A stretch of 64,000 nucleotides of DNA, taken from assembly GCF_902459745.1 (NCBI RefSeq), contig NZ_CABPSJ010000004.1:186001-250000 (forward strand), written 5' to 3'. Below are positions 31,354 through 46,170 of this stretch, piece by piece (positions within the stretch are counted from its first letter, which is position 1; each line of letters opens with the position of its first letter). A program made the translations under genes and the position numbers. The DNA comes from Pandoraea communis (GTDB lineage: Bacteria; Pseudomonadota; Gammaproteobacteria; Burkholderiales; Burkholderiaceae). The notes under the pieces are model-generated. The model had not been told where the DNA came from and did no database searches. It saw nothing but the letters and a program-made list of their open reading frames with translations.

Positions 31354-31812
31354 TTACGCCGGCCGGACGACCTGAGTGTCCTCCGGCGCCACGGGCCGGC
31401 CGTCGCGAGTGGTCGGCTGCAAATCGGCCAGCGGCTTGCCGGTTCGCGTGTCGATCAGCGTCGAGTGACGCTCGCGCCGCTCGAAGCGGTATTTCTCTCC
31501 CCACTGCCGTAGCGCCACGATCAGCGTGAAGAGTTCGCGGCCCTGAGGCGTCAGCACATATTCCTGGTACGACGTGCCGTCCGAGGCGGGCTGCACCGAG
31601 AGGATGCCCGCCTCGACCAGCGCGCGCAGACGCGTCGTCAGCATGCTGCGCGCCACGCCGAGGCTGCGCAGGAAGTCGCCGAAACGGCGCACGCCATCGA
31701 AGGCGTCGCGCACGATGAGCAGGCTCCACCGGTCGCCGATGACGTCGACCGTGCGCGCGACGGGACAGGTATCCAGCGACGGGGCGGGCGCTTCGGATCG
31801 GGTTTGCGTCAT
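31354..31812 (-). CDS. HxlR family winged-helix regulator
   Basis: A 152-residue MarR-like winged-helix regulator. The HxlR domain opens CPVARTVDVIGDRWSLLIVRDAF with the conserved N-terminal Cys often used for redox or electrophile sensing. The recognition region FLRSLGVARSMLTTRLRALVEAGIL and wing YVLTPQGRELFTLI follow. It is divergent from an MFS transporter; the 99-bp gap carries an extended inverted repeat that is a good operator candidate. The C-terminal 45 residues extend beyond the HTH. Confidence 0.9.
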   Translation of the reverse strand: MTQTRSEAPAPSLDTCPVARTVDVIGDRWSLLIVRDAFDGVRRFGDFLRSLGVARSMLTTRLRALVEAGILSVQPASDGTSYQEYVLTPQGRELFTLIVALRQWGEKYRFERRERHSTLIDTRTGKPLADLQPTTRDGRPVAPEDTQVVRPA

Positions 31813-31851
31813 GTTGAAGGCGTTTTGCAGGAGCGAAAATTGAGTTTTATT

Positions 31852-31887
31852 TTAAGACTGGTTTGGTTATGATCCAACAAGTCTTAA
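31852..31887. promoter_or_regulatory. Inverted-repeat operator candidate for the HxlR regulator
   Basis: TTAAGACT (31852-31859) and AGTCTTAA (31880-31887) are perfect 8-bp inverted arms, with TGG and CCA further inside extending the symmetry. It lies in an AT-rich patch between the divergent hxlR-type and MFS genes, 24 bp before the MFS start. Confidence 0.65.
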
Positions 31888-31911
31888 TTTGAAACTAGTT
31901 TTGGGGGCTTC

Positions 31912-33159
31912 ATGTCATCGTGTCCATCGACGCATGTCGCGTCTGCGCCATCGAACGTGTCCCGAGCCGCGCACCGAATGCCGCGAGCGCTTGTGGCGAT
32001 CTTCGCGTGTGCGGCGGGGCTGAGCGTCGCCAACGTCTACTACGCACAGCCCTTGCTCGATGCGCTGGCGGACGACTTCGGGATCTCGCGCGGCGCGGCG
32101 GGTGGTGTGGTGAGCGCGACGCAGGCGGGGTGCGCGCTGGCATTGCTGTTCCTCGTGCCGTTGGGTGACCAGTGGGAGCGCAGACGCCTCATGCTTGCGC
32201 AACTCGCGCTGCTGACGTTGAGTCTGCTGGCCGTGTCGGCGGCAGCGTCTGCCGTGGCGCTGCTGCTTGGCATGACGCTCGTCGGCATGCTGGGCACCGC
32301 GATGACACAGGGCCTCATCGCCTACGCGTCGAGTGCGGCGGGTGAGCATGAGCGCGGACGTGTCGTCGGCGCCACGCAGGGAGGTGTGGTCGTCGGTCTG
32401 CTTCTGGCGCGAGTCATGGCGGGCGGCATTGCCGACGTCACCGGATGGCGCGGCGTGTATCTGGCGTCGGCGGCGGGAATGGTGGTGCTTGGCGCAGTGC
32501 TATGGCGCGCGTTGCCGCGTCAGCCGACATCGGGTACGCGGCAGCGCTACGTCGTGCTGCTGGCGTCGATGTTCCGTCTGTTGCGCGAAGAGCGCACGTT
32601 GCAGATTCGCGGCATGATCGCGTTGCTGATGTTCATGGCGTTCAGCATTTTCTGGAGCGCTCTGGTGTTGCCGCTGTCCGCTGCGCCATTCCACTTCTCG
32701 CATACGAGCATCGGCGCTTTCGGGCTCGTTGGCGCGGCGGGGGCGCTGGCCGCAGCGCGCGCGGGGTATTGGGCAGACCGTGGGTGGGCGCAGCGCACGA
32801 CTGGCGTCGCTCTCGCGCTGTTGGTGTTTTCGTGGCTGCCGCTGGCGGGCTTGCAGGCGTCGCTGGGCTGGCTCATCGTGGGCGTGTTGCTGCTCGATCT
32901 CGCCGGACAGGCGATTCACGTCACGAATCAGAGCCTGATCTTTGCGGCGCGCACCGATGCCCCGAGCCGTCTCGTGGGGGCGTACATGCTGTTCTACGCG
33001 ACGGGCAGTGGCCTGGGGGCGGTCGCTGCGACGGCAACTTACGCGGCTTTTGGCTGGGTGGGCGTGTGTGTACTCGGCGCGAGTGTGAGCCTGACGGCGC
33101 TCGCGTTCTGGGCGGCGACGTTGCGCGCGATGCCGGTTACCGCCGCCGGCCGGCGTTAG
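31912..33159 (+). CDS. MFS transporter, drug/sugar efflux type
   Basis: A 415-residue 12-helix major facilitator protein. Early residues GLSVANVYYAQPLLDALADDFG are typical of the YnfM/AraJ-like efflux branch. The loop 2-3 motif A is partly conserved (VPLGDQWERRRLML), and GRVVGATQGGVVVGLLLARVMAG resembles the antiporter motif C region. Substrate unknown. It is divergent from the HxlR regulator and probably repressed by it. Its stop codon overlaps that of the convergent DUF2894 gene (33156-33159), leaving no terminator between them. Confidence 0.88.
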   Translation: MSSCPSTHVASAPSNVSRAAHRMPRALVAIFACAAGLSVANVYYAQPLLDALADDFGISRGAAGGVVSATQAGCALALLFLVPLGDQWERRRLMLAQLALLTLSLLAVSAAASAVALLLGMTLVGMLGTAMTQGLIAYASSAAGEHERGRVVGATQGGVVVGLLLARVMAGGIADVTGWRGVYLASAAGMVVLGAVLWRALPRQPTSGTRQRYVVLLASMFRLLREERTLQIRGMIALLMFMAFSIFWSALVLPLSAAPFHFSHTSIGAFGLVGAAGALAAARAGYWADRGWAQRTTGVALALLVFSWLPLAGLQASLGWLIVGVLLLDLAGQAIHVTNQSLIFAARTDAPSRLVGAYMLFYATGSGLGAVAATATYAAFGWVGVCVLGASVSLTALAFWAATLRAMPVTAAGRR

Positions 33160-34001
33160 CGAGCCTTCGCGCGTGACGGCTTGGTGACGGTGGCGGCGCG
33201 GGCAGCGGGCTTGTTGCCGAGCACGCCGGTCGTCTCCATGTCTTCGAGCCACGAGAGGGCATCTGCATGGCGCAGGAAATGCCGTAGATAGTCGGGCGAG
33301 ACGTCGTGCATGAGTGAGAGCGCGCGGTGCACCAGATGGCTGGAGTTGAGCGGCCCTGCGTTTTCCGGCACCTGCGCGAGCGACTGACGGAGATTGCCGT
33401 TGGTGCTGAGCTTCGACCACGTCTCGCGAAAGTACTCGAGAACATCGAGGTCTTCGAAGGCGTCGTCGGTGGAAATGACCGTCGGTGTGACGGGCACGGT
33501 CATCGGCGAGGGTGACACGACGGGGCGCTGTTGCGGCGCCGACGACACGCTGCCCGGTTGAGCGGCCTCGCGCGCCGGTGGCGTCTGACTTGCCGGCGTT
33601 GCCGCTCGGCCTCTGGCAGGTGCCTTTGCCGGTGCGGGACGCTCTCCCGTGCCCACTCGTTGCGCGATGTCGGCCGTGAGTACGGCGAGCGGCGACGATG
33701 CAGGCTGCGAGGTCTGACGGCTTTCATCGGAGGGCGCCACCGGCGCGTCGCCAAGCGATTGTACGAGTTCGTCGACGAGCGTCTTCAACCGCTCATCGAG
33801 CACACGTCGCACATCCCCCGTGTAGGCACGGCTGCGCAGCGCCAGCGCTTCGATGCGATGAAACCGTGCAGGATCGCGTTTATCGACGCCTTGCATCCGC
33901 CACGCGGCGAGTTGCGCCGGCAATGCGTCCGATGCCTCAGGCGCGGGCGTTGCCGGCGTCGCAATCGTTTCGTCGCACTCGACGCGCATCGCCTCACGCA
34001 T
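33156..34001 (-). CDS. DUF2894 domain protein, last gene of the DUF802 operon
   Basis: A 281-residue soluble protein of unknown function. The N-terminal part DPARFHRIEALALRSRAYTGDVRRVLDERLKTLVDEL (written here only to mark residues about 41-77) is the DUF2894 pattern of a helical pair. A long Ala/Pro/Ser-rich linker follows, then a conserved C-terminal block with LEYFRETWSKLSTNG, GPLNSSHLVHRALSLM and SPDYLRHFLRHADALSWLE. The tail is basic. It overlaps the OmpA-like gene by 8 bp. ATG 34001 is used; ATG 33989 is an alternative. Association with the three upstream genes suggests a cytoplasmic partner of the membrane complex. Confidence 0.8.
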   Translation of the reverse strand: MREAMRVECDETIATPATPAPEASDALPAQLAAWRMQGVDKRDPARFHRIEALALRSRAYTGDVRRVLDERLKTLVDELVQSLGDAPVAPSDESRQTSQPASSPLAVLTADIAQRVGTGERPAPAKAPARGRAATPASQTPPAREAAQPGSVSSAPQQRPVVSPSPMTVPVTPTVISTDDAFEDLDVLEYFRETWSKLSTNGNLRQSLAQVPENAGPLNSSHLVHRALSLMHDVSPDYLRHFLRHADALSWLEDMETTGVLGNKPAARAATVTKPSRAKAR

Positions 34002-34662
34002 GGGGCTTGCCCACACTGCTGGCGCTGCTGCGCGGCATCGGCGCGATTTCCACGCGCCGGTTCTTCGCGCGGCCGGCTTCGTCGGCGTTCGACGTGACGG
34101 GTTGCTCGGCACCGAACGCTGCCGAGAAGATCGATGACGGCGGCACGCCTGCGGCAATCAATTCGCGGGTGACGGTGAGTGCCCGCTGGGCCGACAACTC
34201 CCAGTTATCGGCGAATCGCCGGTTCGTCTCACGCACCTGCTGATCGTCGGTGAAGCCGCTGACCATGAGGATTTCGTCGCTTGCGCGCAGATAGGCGCTC
34301 AGCGGGGCGGCCAGACTGTGCAGCACTTCACGCCCCTGTGGCTGCAACTGGTCCGAGTTCAGCGCGAAGAGCACGTTGCCGCTGATGCCGATGCGGCCGT
34401 TCACGAGCGTGACGCGGCCGCCGGCGAGCGGCCCGGCAAGCGCGTGCTCGAGTGTCTGGCGGCGTTGCGTTTCGGCACGCCGCTCTTTCACTTCGCGTTC
34501 GAGCTTGGCGGACAGTTCGATCTGCACGCCGATCACGCCCAGCATGATGAGGACGAACGCGCCGAGCATCACTGACATCAGATCGCCGAAGACGGCCCAC
34601 GTCGGCGCTGCGGCACCGACATCGCCGCTGTCTGCGATATCCGCGTCGAAATCTTCCCTCAT
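33994..34662 (-). CDS. MotB/OmpA-like peptidoglycan-binding protein with N-terminal membrane helix
   Basis: A 222-residue protein built like MotB and ZorB: a short cytoplasmic acidic tail, one membrane helix with an Asp at its start (WAVFGDLMSVMLGAFVLIML, Asp27 at the place of the MotB proton-binding Asp32), a helical linker (LSAKLEREVKERRAETQRRQ), and a periplasmic OmpA domain. The OmpA signatures are LFALNSDQLQPQGREVL, VSGFTDDQQV and NWELSAQRALTVTRELI ending GRAKNRRVEI. It should anchor the complex to peptidoglycan and form the ion path with the DUF802 protein. Its start overlaps the DUF802 stop (ATGA). Confidence 0.85.
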   Translation of the reverse strand: MREDFDADIADSGDVGAAAPTWAVFGDLMSVMLGAFVLIMLGVIGVQIELSAKLEREVKERRAETQRRQTLEHALAGPLAGGRVTLVNGRIGISGNVLFALNSDQLQPQGREVLHSLAAPLSAYLRASDEILMVSGFTDDQQVRETNRRFADNWELSAQRALTVTRELIAAGVPPSSIFSAAFGAEQPVTSNADEAGRAKNRRVEIAPMPRSSASSVGKPHA

Positions 34663-37514
34663 GCTGCCACGCTACCCGGTTGTGCCCGCGTCTGCGCCAT
34701 ATCCTGAAGGTTCTCGAGAATCTGCTTCTGCGACATCACACTCAGTTCCACCACCTCACGCGCCTGTGCGACGTAGTAGCCAAGCTGTTCGTCGCTGCGC
34801 GCCATCGACTTGTCGAGCGCGGCTTCGATGCGTTGCAGATGCTCGAGCAATTGCGTGTTCGATTCACCGAACGATTGCACGGCTGCCCCGAAGGCGTCGC
34901 CAAGGCTGGCGATTTCCACGGCGCTGCCGGTGACCTGTGCCGATGCGGCGGCGAGCTTCTCGGTCTGAGCGGCGATGGCGTCGCCCAGGTTCGTGCCGGC
35001 GCGCTCGAGCAATTGCGCGGACGTCGTGACCAGTTCATCGACGGCGGCGCGTTGCTCGTTACCGGCGTGCCTGACGGTGTCGAGCAGCGTGCCCAGTGTG
35101 TCGAGCAGGCGCGAGCGTTCGTCGAGCATGGCGTTGTCGCGCACCATGCTGTCCGAGAGCTTCTGACGCAGTTCGCCGATGATCTCGGCGGCGGCTTTCG
35201 GCGCTTCTGACGCGGTTTGCACCAGACGCGAGATCTCGGCAATGGTGTCGCTCGCATTGGCGCGCGTCTGTTCGGACATTTCGAGCGCGGTGCGGGCGAG
35301 CGTGTCGCAGATGGCCTGTTGCTGGCTGGCGGTTTGCGCGCCGACCTTTTGCCATTCCGAGCGCAGCGTGGCGAGCGTGCCTTCGAGCGTTTCGGTCCAC
35401 GCGGACAGGCGCTGCGTTTCGCGCTCGGCGGTGGCGTCGTGATGCGCGGTGTTGGCCGCGTTCAATGCTTGCAGCAGCGACGCGCTGTGCTGCGTCAATG
35501 CCCCGGTCGTTGCGGCGACGAGTTGCTGGTTGCCGTCGGCCAACCGCTCGCTCGTGCGTGCGTGTTCTGCGATGGCGTCGCGCCATGTTTGTGCGACGTT
35601 TTCCGACGTCGAGTCCATTTGTGCCGAGACACTTTGCAGCAGTTGCGAAGCGCGCGCCTCGAAGGTTTCGGCAAAGCGCACGAGTGCGCCGCCCAGATCG
35701 CGTGCGAGCGCATCGTTTGCGGACTGCTGCGCCGTGAGCGCTTGTTTCCATTCCCCGGACACGACTGCGGCCGTCTCCGATACGCTGTGCATCGCGCCTT
35801 CGGTGCGCTGGCTTACGCCGTCGATCAAGTGTGCCGAGCGTTGCTCGAAGGTCTCGGTGAAGCGGGTGAGCGCGGCGGCGAGTTCGGTGTTCAGCGCGGC
35901 GTTGGCCTGCTGTTGCAGCGCGATCGATTGATCCCACGCCTGCGCAACCCGCTCATGTGCCCCGGTGACATTTCCGCTGGCGGCGTCGAGCTTGGTGGCG
36001 ACATCGGCAAGCAACGTTTGGGAGCGGGCTTCGAACGTTTGTGCGAAGCGTTCCAGCGCGATGCCGAGATCTTGTGTGAGGGCGTCGTGCGAGCGCTGTT
36101 GTTGAGACAGGGCTTGCGCCCACGCCTGAGCCACGGTCGTCTGCGCAGTCGCAATGCTGCCCGTGGCGTTATCGAGGCGCGTAGTGACGTCGGCGAGCAG
36201 CCCGGCCGAACGTGTCTCGAAGGTCTGGGCAAATTGCGCGAGCGTCGCGCCAAGATCCTTGGCGAGCGAGTCGTTGGTGCGCTGTTGCGCGGCGAGCGAC
36301 GTCTCCCAGGTGTGGGCGACCCCGGCATGGGCGCTGCTGACTTGTCCGGTGACGGCTTCGAGGCGTGTGGCGACATCGTCGACCAGGCGCGCGGCGCGCG
36401 TGTCGAACGTCTGTGTGAACTCCCCCAGGGCGGTGCGCAGACCGGTCGCGAGCGATTCGTTGGTGCGCAATTGAGCGTCGAGCGAGTCTTTCCAGACATT
36501 TGCTACGCGTTCGGTGGTGGCTTCGAAGCGATCGGACAGGCCGTCCATTCGATCCTGCATCGCGCCGGCGACGGTCTGATGCCACGATGCTGTTTCACGC
36601 GCGAGACTCGCCATCGTCGCTTCGACTTCCGGCCGGATGGCGGCGCCGGCGGCACTCGCCGTAGTGGCCACACTGTCCTTCAGATATTGCTGCATGGCGC
36701 TGGTGAGTTGCGCGTAGGACGCATCGGTCTTCGCGTGAAGCGCGTCCTGATTGGCGGCGAGCCGTTCGCCAAGCGCCTGACTCTGGCGCTCCATCGCGGC
36801 CATCATGTCTTGCAGCCGGTCGACGAGGGCGGGCATGACCGTCGCCTGTTGCGCAAGGAGTTGCAACGTGGTTTCGCGTTGATGCTGTTGCGAGAAGCCG
36901 CGCAACGTCGTGACGATATGGGCGTCGAGCGATTGCACGACTTGCGCGCGTTGCTTACGGGCGAGCGCGGCCAGCAGGCCTAGCATGGCCGAGGTAGCGA
37001 CACCGGCCACCGACGTGCCGAATGCGAAGCCGAGGCCCTTTACCGGAGACGCCAGCGAGGCACGAATTGCTTCGAGATCGGTGGCGCCTTCGAGCGCGAG
37101 GCCGGTGCCGCGCAGCGTGGCTGCCATGCCGAGGAAGGTGCCGAGCATGCCCAGCAGCACGAGCAGCCCGACGAGGTACGGCGTGAGGGCCGGGCCGGGC
37201 AGGCCGACGCGCTCGCCTTCGACGCGCAGGCGCACGGCGGTGCGCAGCCCGGCAGGGAGCGTATCGAGCCACGAGGGCAGCGACGCGGGCGCTGCGTTCA
37301 GGCCGGAGACGGCATTGGCGAGGGCGTCGGTCGCTTGATGGAAGCGTTTGAGTTCGAGGGCGCCGATGAGATAGACGGCGGCGATCAGCAGGGCGACGGC
37401 CAGCGCGAGGGTATTGGTGCCTGCATAGCCGATGGCGATCCAGCCGACGACGGCAAGACCTGCGGCAAAGGCAACGAGATCAACGAGGTAACGGGTCATG
37501 TTGTCCGGGTTCAC
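34659..37514 (-). CDS. DUF802 protein: MotA/TolQ-like membrane core with long repetitive coiled-coil tail
   Basis: A 951-residue protein. Two N-terminal helices (about 9-30, 34-55) and a second pair (112-133, 161-186) form the membrane part. YLVGLLVLLGMLGTFLGM with GLGFAFGTSVAGVATSAM match the TM3/TM4 motifs of MotA, ExbB and TolQ. The remaining 760 residues are an Ala/Gln/Thr-rich helical tail. From residue 341 it contains five tandem units starting with Trp, four of 62 residues and one of 55, followed by a partial unit. The tail probably extends into the cytoplasm as in ZorA. GTG 37514 or ATG 37499 are both possible starts. Both overlap the DUF3348 gene. Confidence 0.82.
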   Translation of the reverse strand: MNPDNMTRYLVDLVAFAAGLAVVGWIAIGYAGTNTLALAVALLIAAVYLIGALELKRFHQATDALANAVSGLNAAPASLPSWLDTLPAGLRTAVRLRVEGERVGLPGPALTPYLVGLLVLLGMLGTFLGMAATLRGTGLALEGATDLEAIRASLASPVKGLGFAFGTSVAGVATSAMLGLLAALARKQRAQVVQSLDAHIVTTLRGFSQQHQRETTLQLLAQQATVMPALVDRLQDMMAAMERQSQALGERLAANQDALHAKTDASYAQLTSAMQQYLKDSVATTASAAGAAIRPEVEATMASLARETASWHQTVAGAMQDRMDGLSDRFEATTERVANVWKDSLDAQLRTNESLATGLRTALGEFTQTFDTRAARLVDDVATRLEAVTGQVSSAHAGVAHTWETSLAAQQRTNDSLAKDLGATLAQFAQTFETRSAGLLADVTTRLDNATGSIATAQTTVAQAWAQALSQQQRSHDALTQDLGIALERFAQTFEARSQTLLADVATKLDAASGNVTGAHERVAQAWDQSIALQQQANAALNTELAAALTRFTETFEQRSAHLIDGVSQRTEGAMHSVSETAAVVSGEWKQALTAQQSANDALARDLGGALVRFAETFEARASQLLQSVSAQMDSTSENVAQTWRDAIAEHARTSERLADGNQQLVAATTGALTQHSASLLQALNAANTAHHDATAERETQRLSAWTETLEGTLATLRSEWQKVGAQTASQQQAICDTLARTALEMSEQTRANASDTIAEISRLVQTASEAPKAAAEIIGELRQKLSDSMVRDNAMLDERSRLLDTLGTLLDTVRHAGNEQRAAVDELVTTSAQLLERAGTNLGDAIAAQTEKLAAASAQVTGSAVEIASLGDAFGAAVQSFGESNTQLLEHLQRIEAALDKSMARSDEQLGYYVAQAREVVELSVMSQKQILENLQDMAQTRAQPGSVAA

Positions 37515-38277
37515 TAACGTTTTCGCCGGGGTGAATCGAAGTGAGGGCGGCGATCAGCCCTTCGATCGGTTCAAGGCGTATATCCAGTTCCGCAAGCAGA
37601 ATGCTTTGCATGTCCCGGTGGAAGGTGTCGAGCCACGTGCCGGCGGGCGCGAGCGGCGGTGCGCCGGGCACGCGCGGGGCGGCCATCGCCGCCTGCTCCG
37701 TGTCGCGCAGCCGTACGAAGTGCGCTTCGAGCAGATTCGGCACGCTGGCGAGCAGTGTGCGCTCGCGTGCGCCCATGACGCGCTCCATGACGGTGTCGAC
37801 GCTGGCGAGCCGCGCGGTGTCCGGTGATTGCGCGGCCAACTGTCCGCGCAGACGGGTGCGCAGGGCGCTGATTGCCGTGTCCATCGTCTGTTGCGACGTC
37901 GCATAGCGTTGCCGATAGGCCGGAAACTCCGCAAAGGACGCTGCCCGTTGACGCTCGGCGGCGCTCAATGCCCGGATCTGCCCGCCGGGCGCGGCGGCGA
38001 GACCGCAATCGCGGGCAATCGCTGCGGCGAGGTCTGCGCGTACGCGTGCCAGTTCGCTTGCCGCGCCGTGCGCAGCCGCGCGCACGCCGGGCATTGCGGC
38101 GGGCGGAGGGGCTTTGAGGGCCGACGACAGGGCGATGGCGTCGGTCCAGCCAACCCACTGACTCATGCGGTCCGACAGCGACGGCGCAGCTTCGGGCGGC
38201 GTGAACGTGCTGATACGGGCCAGAGAGCGGATGAGGGTGGGGGCGCTGATAACGGGACGCCGGGGCACTTGCACCAT
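37480..38277 (-). CDS. DUF3348 domain protein, first gene of the DUF802 operon
   Basis: A 265-residue soluble protein of unknown function. It starts with the DUF3348 pattern PTLIRSLARISTFTPP then SDRMSQWVGWTDAIALSSAL. A helical middle part with many Arg and Ala follows, then YATSQQTMDTAISALRTRLRGQL, VMERVMGARERTLLASVPNLLEAHF and TWLDTFHRDMQSILLAELDIRL. No membrane helix or signal peptide. Always-adjacent position before a DUF802 gene is known from other beta- and gammaproteobacteria. The 3' end overlaps the DUF802 start, so translation is coupled. The 294-bp gap to the small-protein genes on its right holds no other gene. Confidence 0.82.
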   Translation of the reverse strand: MVQVPRRPVISAPTLIRSLARISTFTPPEAAPSLSDRMSQWVGWTDAIALSSALKAPPPAAMPGVRAAAHGAASELARVRADLAAAIARDCGLAAAPGGQIRALSAAERQRAASFAEFPAYRQRYATSQQTMDTAISALRTRLRGQLAAQSPDTARLASVDTVMERVMGARERTLLASVPNLLEAHFVRLRDTEQAAMAAPRVPGAPPLAPAGTWLDTFHRDMQSILLAELDIRLEPIEGLIAALTSIHPGENVSEPGQHDPLPR

Positions 38278-38571
38278 TCCACTGAGGGGTCAAAAACCCA
38301 GCAGTTTACACTGCGCGCGCCTCCCCTTTACCGCTTGACACTCGGGCGGGGGACTTGACGGGCGTGACGAGGCCAGTTCAGCGACTCGTCATGGCCGGAT
38401 GGCGGCTGTCTGGTGCCGTCTGGCCGCCGTGCGACGGCATTGCCACTGCCGTTACCCCTGGCGCATACGCCGACTGTGATTTATCTCAGTTTTCGCGATC
38501 CCCTGCGGGGTATATCGTTGACCCAACTCGCGACAAACGCGAAACAACGAAGCAAACACTGGAGGTGTGAA

Positions 38572-38679
38572 ATGGGCTGGGGACTTCTTTGTGACGGATT
38601 GGTGACGGTGGGTACGTGGGCAAGCCGGGCTGCACCGGTGGCCAAGTTTTTCTCCGACATGGCCGATCTCCTGATGTAA
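38572..38679 (+). CDS. Small 35-residue protein, tandem copy 1
   Basis: Begins MGWGLLCDGLVTVG and ends SDMADLLM. A perfect GGAGGTG Shine-Dalgarno lies 4 nt before the ATG. The peptide is mostly hydrophobic and Gly/Ala-rich with few charges (Asp8, Arg19, Lys25, Asp29, Asp32) and one Cys, so it could form an amphipathic helix. A second copy 153 bp downstream differs at eight codons. Five of these are synonymous and three conservative (Met to Ile, Leu to Ile, Leu to Phe), which argues for selection on the protein. No family is recognised. Type I toxin-like peptides, secreted peptides or small membrane regulators are possibilities. Confidence 0.75.
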   Translation: MGWGLLCDGLVTVGTWASRAAPVAKFFSDMADLLM

Positions 38680-38724
38680 AGCGAGATAGGCGAAATCGAA
38701 CTTAACAACGAGTGGAGGTGTGAA

Positions 38725-38832
38725 ATGGGCTGGGGACTTCTTTGCGACGGATTGGTGACGGTAGGTACGTGGGCAAGCCGGGCTGCACCGGTGGCCAAAT
38801 TCTTCTCCGACATAGCCGACATTTTCATGTGA
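38725..38832 (+). CDS. Small 35-residue protein, tandem copy 2
   Basis: Begins MGWGLLCDGLVTVG like copy 1 and ends SDIADIFM. The ribosome-binding site and next bases (GGAGGTGTGAAATG) are identical to copy 1, while the 34 bp preceding it is not a repeat of the leader of copy 1. The changed stop codon (TGA for TAA) and third-position differences show the copies have diverged for some time while the peptide stayed constant. The 45-bp spacer between the two genes has no terminator, so one transcript probably encodes both. Confidence 0.75.
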   Translation: MGWGLLCDGLVTVGTWASRAAPVAKFFSDIADIFM

Positions 38833-39073: not shown

Positions 39074-39147
39074 TGGAGCGGGCGATGGGAATCGAACCCA
39101 CGGCTCTAGCTTGGGAAGCTAGGGTATTACCATTATACGACGCCCGC
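39074..39147 (-). tRNA. tRNA-Gly (anticodon CCC), copy 1
   Basis: A 74-nt cloverleaf on the minus strand starting GCGGGCGTCGTATAATGG. The anticodon stem CTAGC/GCTAG encloses loop TTCCCAA, giving anticodon CCC. The T arm is GTGGGTTCGATTCCCAT, and the acceptor closes with CGCCCGC followed by encoded TCCA. It has the same structure as glyU-type tRNAs. An identical gene lies at 46097-46170. Confidence 0.96.
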
Positions 39148-46096: not shown

Positions 46097-46170
46097 TGGA
46101 GCGGGCGATGGGAATCGAACCCACGGCTCTAGCTTGGGAAGCTAGGGTATTACCATTATACGACGCCCGC
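46097..46170 (-). tRNA. tRNA-Gly (anticodon CCC), copy 2
   Basis: Identical in all 74 positions to copy 1, including encoded TCCA and anticodon loop TTCCCAA. Same strand. The catabolic cluster and RlmN paralogue lie between the two copies. Confidence 0.96.

Follow-up and report, generated by a model that had tools for sequence, protein, structure and literature searches.

The DNA analyzed here, a 64,000-nucleotide (nt) stretch of the Pandoraea communis genome that we call the window, carries at 33156-38277 four overlapping genes that all read leftward on the minus strand, as both the list of open reading frames (ORFs) and the sequence show. Read from right to left they are zorG, zorA, zorB and zorF, and consecutive genes overlap by 35 nt (zorG/zorA, 37480-37514), 4 nt (zorA/zorB, 34659-34662) and 8 nt (zorB/zorF, 33994-34001). 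An initial annotation, made from the sequence alone, had given these coordinates, strand and overlaps, and they stand unchanged. As Table 1 shows, each gene belongs to a recognizable family. All four match the PADLOC-DB models for Zorya type III (ZorG3, ZorA3, ZorB3, ZorF3), with best expectation values (E) of 6e-89 to 0.

Table 1. Genes of the operon and features within them (window coordinates; aa, amino acids)
Feature	Position	Strand	Description and evidence
zorG (PADLOC name)	37480..38277	-	DUF3348, 265 aa; PF11828 E 3e-79; PADLOC ZorG3 E 6e-89
zorA	34659..37514	-	MotA/TolQ-like pore and long helical tail, 951 aa, GTG start; PADLOC ZorA3 1380 bits; pore match to 8vvn_C
ZorA pore stretch, residues 112-182	36969..37181	-	probable transmembrane segments TM3-TM4, from comparison with MotA; T126 at 37137-37139, T167/S168 at 37011-37016
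ZorA-tail array	35472..36539	-	six DUF802 repeats, period 62 residues; six PF05650 matches (E 4e-65); self-identity peak
zorB	33994..34662	-	222 aa, hydrophobic stretch and OmpA/peptidoglycan-binding domain; PADLOC ZorB3 E 1.5e-111; PF00691
ZorB D27	34582-34584	-	inside hydrophobic stretch
ZorB OmpA domain	about 34057-34371	-	PF00691, E 4e-18
zorF (PADLOC name)	33156..34001	-	DUF2894 (E 3e-48 in the Pfam scores), 281 aa from the ATG at 34001, 333 aa as the longer TTG ORF; PF11445 E 2e-48 (281-aa form); PADLOC ZorF3 E 2e-122 (333-aa ORF)

By homology, the operon is Zorya type III, an anti-phage system that has already been described. The type III name dates from 2021 and rests on 6,401 gene pairs (printed "zorBC") with flanking DUF3348 and DUF2894 genes (PMC8565338, Payne et al. 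2021). The same features are found here: the MotA-like ZorA adjoins the MotB-like ZorB across the 4-nt overlap, the DUF3348 and DUF2894 genes flank the pair, and the ion-channel residues are kept (ZorB Asp in 29/29 sequences, ZorA Thr/Ser in 151/151). The initial annotation had called the machine undescribed and, since no ZorC/D/E-like gene is adjacent, not a standard Zorya defense system. The absence is real: PADLOC finds no ZorC, ZorD or ZorE in the operon or in 19 chosen neighboring ORFs, the part of the genome that was scanned. Both labels fail, because PADLOC names all four genes and the system has been in print since 2021, and because DUF3348 and DUF2894 beside ZorAB are what defines type III. 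Types I and II share with the operon the ZorA/ZorB motor with its Asp and Ser/Thr positions, the OmpA domain and the long cytoplasmic tail, but type I needs ZorC and ZorD beside ZorAB and type II needs ZorE, and both were rejected. Nothing breaks membership in type III, whose same four families stand in constant gene order in the complete loci examined; the ZorA tail here, with six DUF802 repeats in a 951-aa protein, is longer than in the ∼698-aa base form of many relatives.

A type III system from Stenotrophomonas nitritireducens is one of three that, once cloned in E. coli BL21-AI, lowered plaque formation by one or more of five phages, and it protected liquid cultures against PVP-SE1 (PMC8565338). 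A 2025 paper devoted to types I and II touches on type III with regard to its gene content and genera (PMC11890865). Our literature search, which reached few subscription journals, found no further study of type III mechanism, no work on Zorya in Pandoraea and none on a Zorya knockout in Xanthomonas; this is a known system in a genus for which we found no published report. The names of the outer genes are swapped between sources: in the text of PMC8565338, DUF3348 is ZorF and DUF2894 is ZorG, while in PADLOC-DB 2.0 (PDLC00652-00658) they are ZorG3 and ZorF3, respectively.

The ZorA pore motifs lie at residues 122-129 and 165-179, and T126, T167 and S168 are invariant in all 151 aligned sequences (two of 153, without the anchor pattern, were left out; the pattern did not fix these three positions). 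All 29 aligned ZorB sequences keep D27 and, in the OmpA domain, D139, R160 and N201-E205. The pore motifs, the transmembrane Asp, which is D27, and the OmpA domain, recognized by Pfam, were all features that the initial annotation had picked out, and its assignment to MotAB/ZorAB-type motors is borne out by the profile search against MotA/TolQ-type proteins that it had proposed. The pore region of ZorA matches the solved MotA/TolQ/ExbB-type chain 8vvn_C (E 0.001), and the family profile of ZorB matches two chains, 8vvn_B (E 1e-8, over positions 8-208 of the 216 in the profile) and 8qyd_F (E 1e-7, positions 9-200), each time across the transmembrane and OmpA parts. We take 8vvn and 8qyd to be Zorya structure entries. 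By analogy with the solved types I and II, ZorA and ZorB would assemble in a 5:2 ratio. Defense by those types depends on the ZorB Asp, on the ZorA tail and on the periplasmic domain of ZorB (PMC11890865).

The ZorA tail is built of repeats. The six DUF802 (PF05650) matches lie mostly 186 nt apart, and the self-identity of the tail peaks at an offset of 62 residues. Across Pandoraea, 25 of 27 measured loci have 606, 730, 792, 854 or 916 residues between the pore motif and a C-terminal motif, equal to 544 plus 1, 3, 4, 5 or 6 times 62; the two remaining loci have 548. The copy number follows the gyrB tree, with 9 changes in 25 genomes versus a mean of 14.5 and a minimum of 11 in 2000 shuffles. 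The wider tail analysis took 143 of the 153 ZorA, leaving out ten that lack one of the two anchor motifs, and the base tail length, which was chosen after viewing the lengths, is matched exactly in 26 of the 143, including genomes of other orders of the class. Because the sets of loci overlap in genomes, the test was run on distinct length differences, among which shared descent still leaves some dependence. The 23 that do not exceed 180 residues show phase locking with a period of 3.64 residues per turn, the best found by scanning (R 0.85, reached by 0 of 20000 random sets); at a period of 3.655, R is 0.75 for the same differences, again above all 20000 random sets. Tail hydrophobicity, as a separate estimate, has a period of 3.655 over all tails and 3.67 for base-length tails. 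Multiples of 29 residues account for 10 of 41 positive distinct differences versus 1.4 expected, and differences of 58, 62, 51 and 40 are also enriched, partly from the same cause. The tails thus differ by close to whole helical turns, as would fit a single unbroken helical bundle in which selection maintains the register. Any long coiled coil should keep register in this way; the data therefore support a rod and do not prove a new mechanism. About 750 residues at 1.5 Å would give a rod of ∼110 nm.

The four genes recur in this order on one strand in 77 of 80 loci in a first fetched set and in 73 of 80 in a second set of named loci (the best 80 of at least 591 candidates); both sets were picked for DUF2894, DUF3348 or ZorB, and they share some genomes. 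The three exceptions in the first set (L069, L226, L227; L and G numbers are our handles for loci and genomes) lack some of the genes, the operon running toward the contig end in each, while in the second set six incomplete loci all lie at contig ends and in L299 an over-long ZorA ORF starts before zorG. This arrangement is far beyond chance. Carriers of the operon include the non-pathogenic laboratory strains Cupriavidus metallidurans CH34 and Paraburkholderia xenovorans LB400. The outer genes also go together by genome: 206 of 299 genomes of the window's family, the Burkholderiaceae, carry DUF3348 and 207 carry DUF2894, with a difference in G271 only. The condition under which the initial annotation would have been refuted, that the four genes seldom occur together, is thus not seen.

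Within Pandoraea, DUF2894 is present in 31/32 genomes, with a single match in 30; G025, an assembly in 500 contigs, has two partial ones on separate contigs. DUF3348 is present in the same 31, with two matches in G025 and G026. The single genome without the operon is 1.2 Mb in size and presumably that of Candidatus Pandoraea novymonadis. All the family genomes with DUF2894, a few of which have two matches, are at least 3.3 Mb; it occurs in 207/231 genomes of 3 Mb or more versus 0/68 smaller ones, so that the 92 without it comprise 68 below 3 Mb and 24 larger (sizes are rounded, and a few assemblies are less than 90% complete). Across the phylum, 22/398 genomes match, 20 of them over the cut-off; six of the 22 are Burkholderiaceae. 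In f17, another family of the class and perhaps Xanthomonadaceae-like, 44/149 genomes have it, clustered by genus. The defense gene hsdR, our control for patchiness, is found in 8/32 Pandoraea genomes, four over the cut-off, and is the only usable one. ZorA_1 (NF033914) makes a weak control: 0/299 are over its cut-off, and many of its 72 weaker-match genomes show ZorA3 or unrelated coils. The patchy presence and the horizontal transfer between close relatives expected of a mobile defense island are not seen within Pandoraea, and the wider set, f17 included, is patchier. DUF3348 appears in 27 of 72556 plasmid records, on replicons of 0.37 to 3.5 Mb (20 non-mobilizable, 7 mobilizable, none conjugative). 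We do not use this rarity as evidence, because a type I control ZorA finds only its own record at E 1e-30, and the comparison does not discriminate. The query L106 was of doubtful identity as a type I control. ZorG and ZorA have no match in phage records, and ZorB has none in viral contigs.

The place of the operon is likewise conserved, with genes that we name uppP and trmB near zorF in 25/28 Pandoraea loci and absent there in L066, L067 and L068; the names rest on the Pfam families BacA and Methyltransf_4 and are in part our assumption. Codon distances of zorG+zorB track those of gyrB (Mantel r 0.958, 25 Pandoraea genomes), and 15/17 well-supported gyrB splits recur in the zorG+zorB tree. 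The tree test, with gyrB picked by homology, took 25 of the 28 genus loci, as G019 and G020 have no gyrB locus and L069/G022 has no zorG. Over 22 syntenic genomes, the correlation with gyrB is 0.895 for zorG+zorB and 0.865 for uppP+trmB. The median ratio of nonsynonymous to synonymous substitution rates (dN/dS) is 0.054 for zorB, 0.064 for the N-part and 0.072 for the C-part of zorA, and 0.119 for zorG, next to 0.073 for gyrB, 0.108 for trmB and 0.116 for uppP (22 to 24 genomes; G022, G023, G028 and G030 dropped beforehand; pairs with dS 0.05 to 1.5 only). Selection on zorA, zorB and zorG resembles that on housekeeping genes. At 0.33, zorF stands higher, which may in part reflect a middle section that aligns poorly and the use of the longest ORF. 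Inheritance in Pandoraea is vertical, as part of the core genome. In the ZorB tree of 71 named loci there are 12 genus changes versus a minimum of 10 and a shuffled mean of 42, nine of 80 rows having been dropped before counting (eight named only Burkholderia sp. and one metagenome-assembled genome named only to family). In the leaf order of this tree, taken by itself without branch supports, Dyella and Rudaea ZorB fall among Burkholderiales, and an older transfer between orders is therefore likely.

These observations make it probable, in our judgment, that the operon is a Zorya type III system acting as an ion-driven, peptidoglycan-anchored envelope sensor with an anti-phage output, fixed here in the core genome. 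ZorA and ZorB would form the ion-driven motor in the inner membrane, in the 5:2 ratio given above, and the OmpA domain of ZorB would anchor it to peptidoglycan. On a disturbance of the envelope, for example phage injection, ZorB would grip the wall and the channel open, the passage of ions would rotate ZorA about ZorB, and the rod would carry the signal into the cytoplasm, where ZorG and ZorF would replace ZorC/D/E as its receivers. Conserved residues and homology point to the motor, the anchor and the rod; the assembly, the rotation, the trigger and the effector role of ZorF and ZorG are our proposal, and phage protection is carried over from the Stenotrophomonas relative studied in E. coli. 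In B. cenocepacia infected with phage, one or two genes at the start of the type III operon are reported to change (PMC12584637).

Several points weigh against this reading. That B. cenocepacia study attributes transcriptional activity to defense systems other than type III (PMC12584637), and the distribution is core-like rather than patchy, which is unusual for an anti-phage system. The operon encodes no nuclease or helicase, and the effector step is weakly grounded. Against other families, ZorF and ZorG give weak matches at best (ZorF members to PF20142, E 0.001; ZorG members to PF13942, E 0.0049), and against PDB sequences the best matches of their profiles are at E 0.03 or worse. Direct DNA cutting by either protein is not supported, since neither has a nuclease match at the profile level; their output may possibly run through recruited host enzymes or the channel. 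Homology between the two is not supported (hhalign probability 0.9 percent). In g64 genomes of f17, L202 (G594) among them, the DUF2894 frame is short, 148-172 aa in four of five listed, and matches the C-terminal part of the model only, which suggests that this part may be the essential one.

The closest competitor holds that the primary role of the operon is a conserved envelope function, such as the sensing or repair of disturbed peptidoglycan or turgor, with phage protection as a by-product of that sensing and of plasmid expression in E. coli; PADLOC and similar tools would then over-call defense in Burkholderiaceae. We regard this as quite possible, though it persuades us less than the defense sensor. 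The near-universal presence in the genus and in large family genomes speaks for it, as do the congruence of zorG+zorB with gyrB, dN/dS values close to those of gyrB, trmB and uppP, the uppP/trmB neighborhood, the lack of a convincing defense gene among the 19 scanned neighbors, and the missing matches in phage records and viral contigs. However, the sole published phenotype that we found is phage protection (PMC8565338). The operon is also dispensable, as its rarity elsewhere in the phylum and its absence from 24/231 large family genomes indicate, and zorF evolves faster, as an arms-race or linker-rich protein might. The genome-size pattern cannot separate the two readings, because small genomes may meet fewer phages, and the patchiness comparison hangs on hsdR as its one usable control. 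Tentatively, and with less than even confidence, we go a step further: Burkholderiaceae Zorya type III may be a core, vertically inherited envelope machine rather than accessory immunity, a peptidoglycan-anchored ion motor with a length-quantized helical rod, in which the anti-phage effect is one output of a general disturbance sensor, ZorF and ZorG are a conserved readout and rod length is a tuned mechanical parameter.

It is unlikely that the operon is an ordinary mobile defense-island system that is merely common here. It is classed as a defense system and is dispensable, three Pandoraea loci carry it at another place, a tRNA-Gly gene adjoins it, and the Dyella/Rudaea placement and the 44/149 genomes of f17 fit such movement. 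Against this stand the conserved place in most of the genus, the lack of defense neighbors seen in the window, the few genus changes on the ZorB tree and, above all, the congruence with gyrB, by which the idea is largely refuted within Pandoraea. A flagellar or Tol/Ton/gliding energizer is very improbable. Flagellar MotAB and PomAB stators do share the pore motif, the transmembrane Asp and the peptidoglycan-binding domain, but the operon adds a long repeat-built tail and two extra partner genes, and no MotB model is over its curated cut-off for ZorB (among 25 models listed of 41, those for MotB, MotD and MotS are far below); NF006547 (PRK09040, "hypothetical protein") is matched instead, at 371 bits versus a cut-off of 194. 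The neighbor scan covered 19 proteins with PADLOC and eight with Pfam (hxlR, mfs1 and six others) and included no search aimed at flagellar or Ton genes. Finally, an undescribed, non-Zorya rotary envelope machine would explain MotA/MotB features that are real, in conserved residues and PDB-chain matches alike, but hardly anything remains of the idea when all four genes match type III models at E 6e-89 or better and the system is in print.

With the claim of an undescribed machine corrected, the Zorya type III label itself becomes a testable question, namely why, throughout a genus and across much of a family, a defense system should show the stability of a housekeeping operon. Should the general envelope sensor prove true, defense has been overcounted in Burkholderiaceae and the origin of Zorya immunity comes within reach. 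The quantized tail offers a direct handle on how the rod works; it and the core status may be points that a specialist does not expect.

Three of the 19 flanking proteins have PADLOC matches, none convincing as a defense gene: the trmB-like methyltransferase to mad2 (E 6e-15), an HxlR regulator to Csa3 (E 3e-4), and a 22-residue match to mad1. No fifth conserved neighbor gene recurs across genera among the 40 largest clusters listed (5 kb flanks, 151 loci), several of which are antisense ORFs. In one plasmid example of type I, by contrast, ZorA adjoins ZorC, a type I methyltransferase and a specificity subunit. For a type I Zorya on a P. aeruginosa plasmid (L308, NZ_CP045003.1, 5734-12513), zorA, zorC and a DEAD/DEAH helicase gene are listed, with no zorB between zorA and zorC in the PLSDB table, which is incomplete. 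Between trmB and zorF, the window carries the HxlR regulator paired with a major facilitator superfamily (MFS) transporter (31354-33159), a pair present in 11/25 syntenic Pandoraea loci, the window's included; this slot is therefore variable though the operon is constant. On the other side, between tRNA-Gly(CCC) and zorG, lie two direct repeats of 132 nt, 88% identical (38546-38677 and 38699-38830), and a 121-base probe finds only those two places in the window's own genome. Two tRNA-Gly(CCC) genes (39074-39147 and 46097-46170) flank 7 kb with AMP-binding, MFS and class II aldolase genes, perhaps a tRNA-flanked insertion. Among the fetched stretches, this trio is found elsewhere only in the Pandoraea locus L083 (98-100% identity), with one match at the edge of L070.

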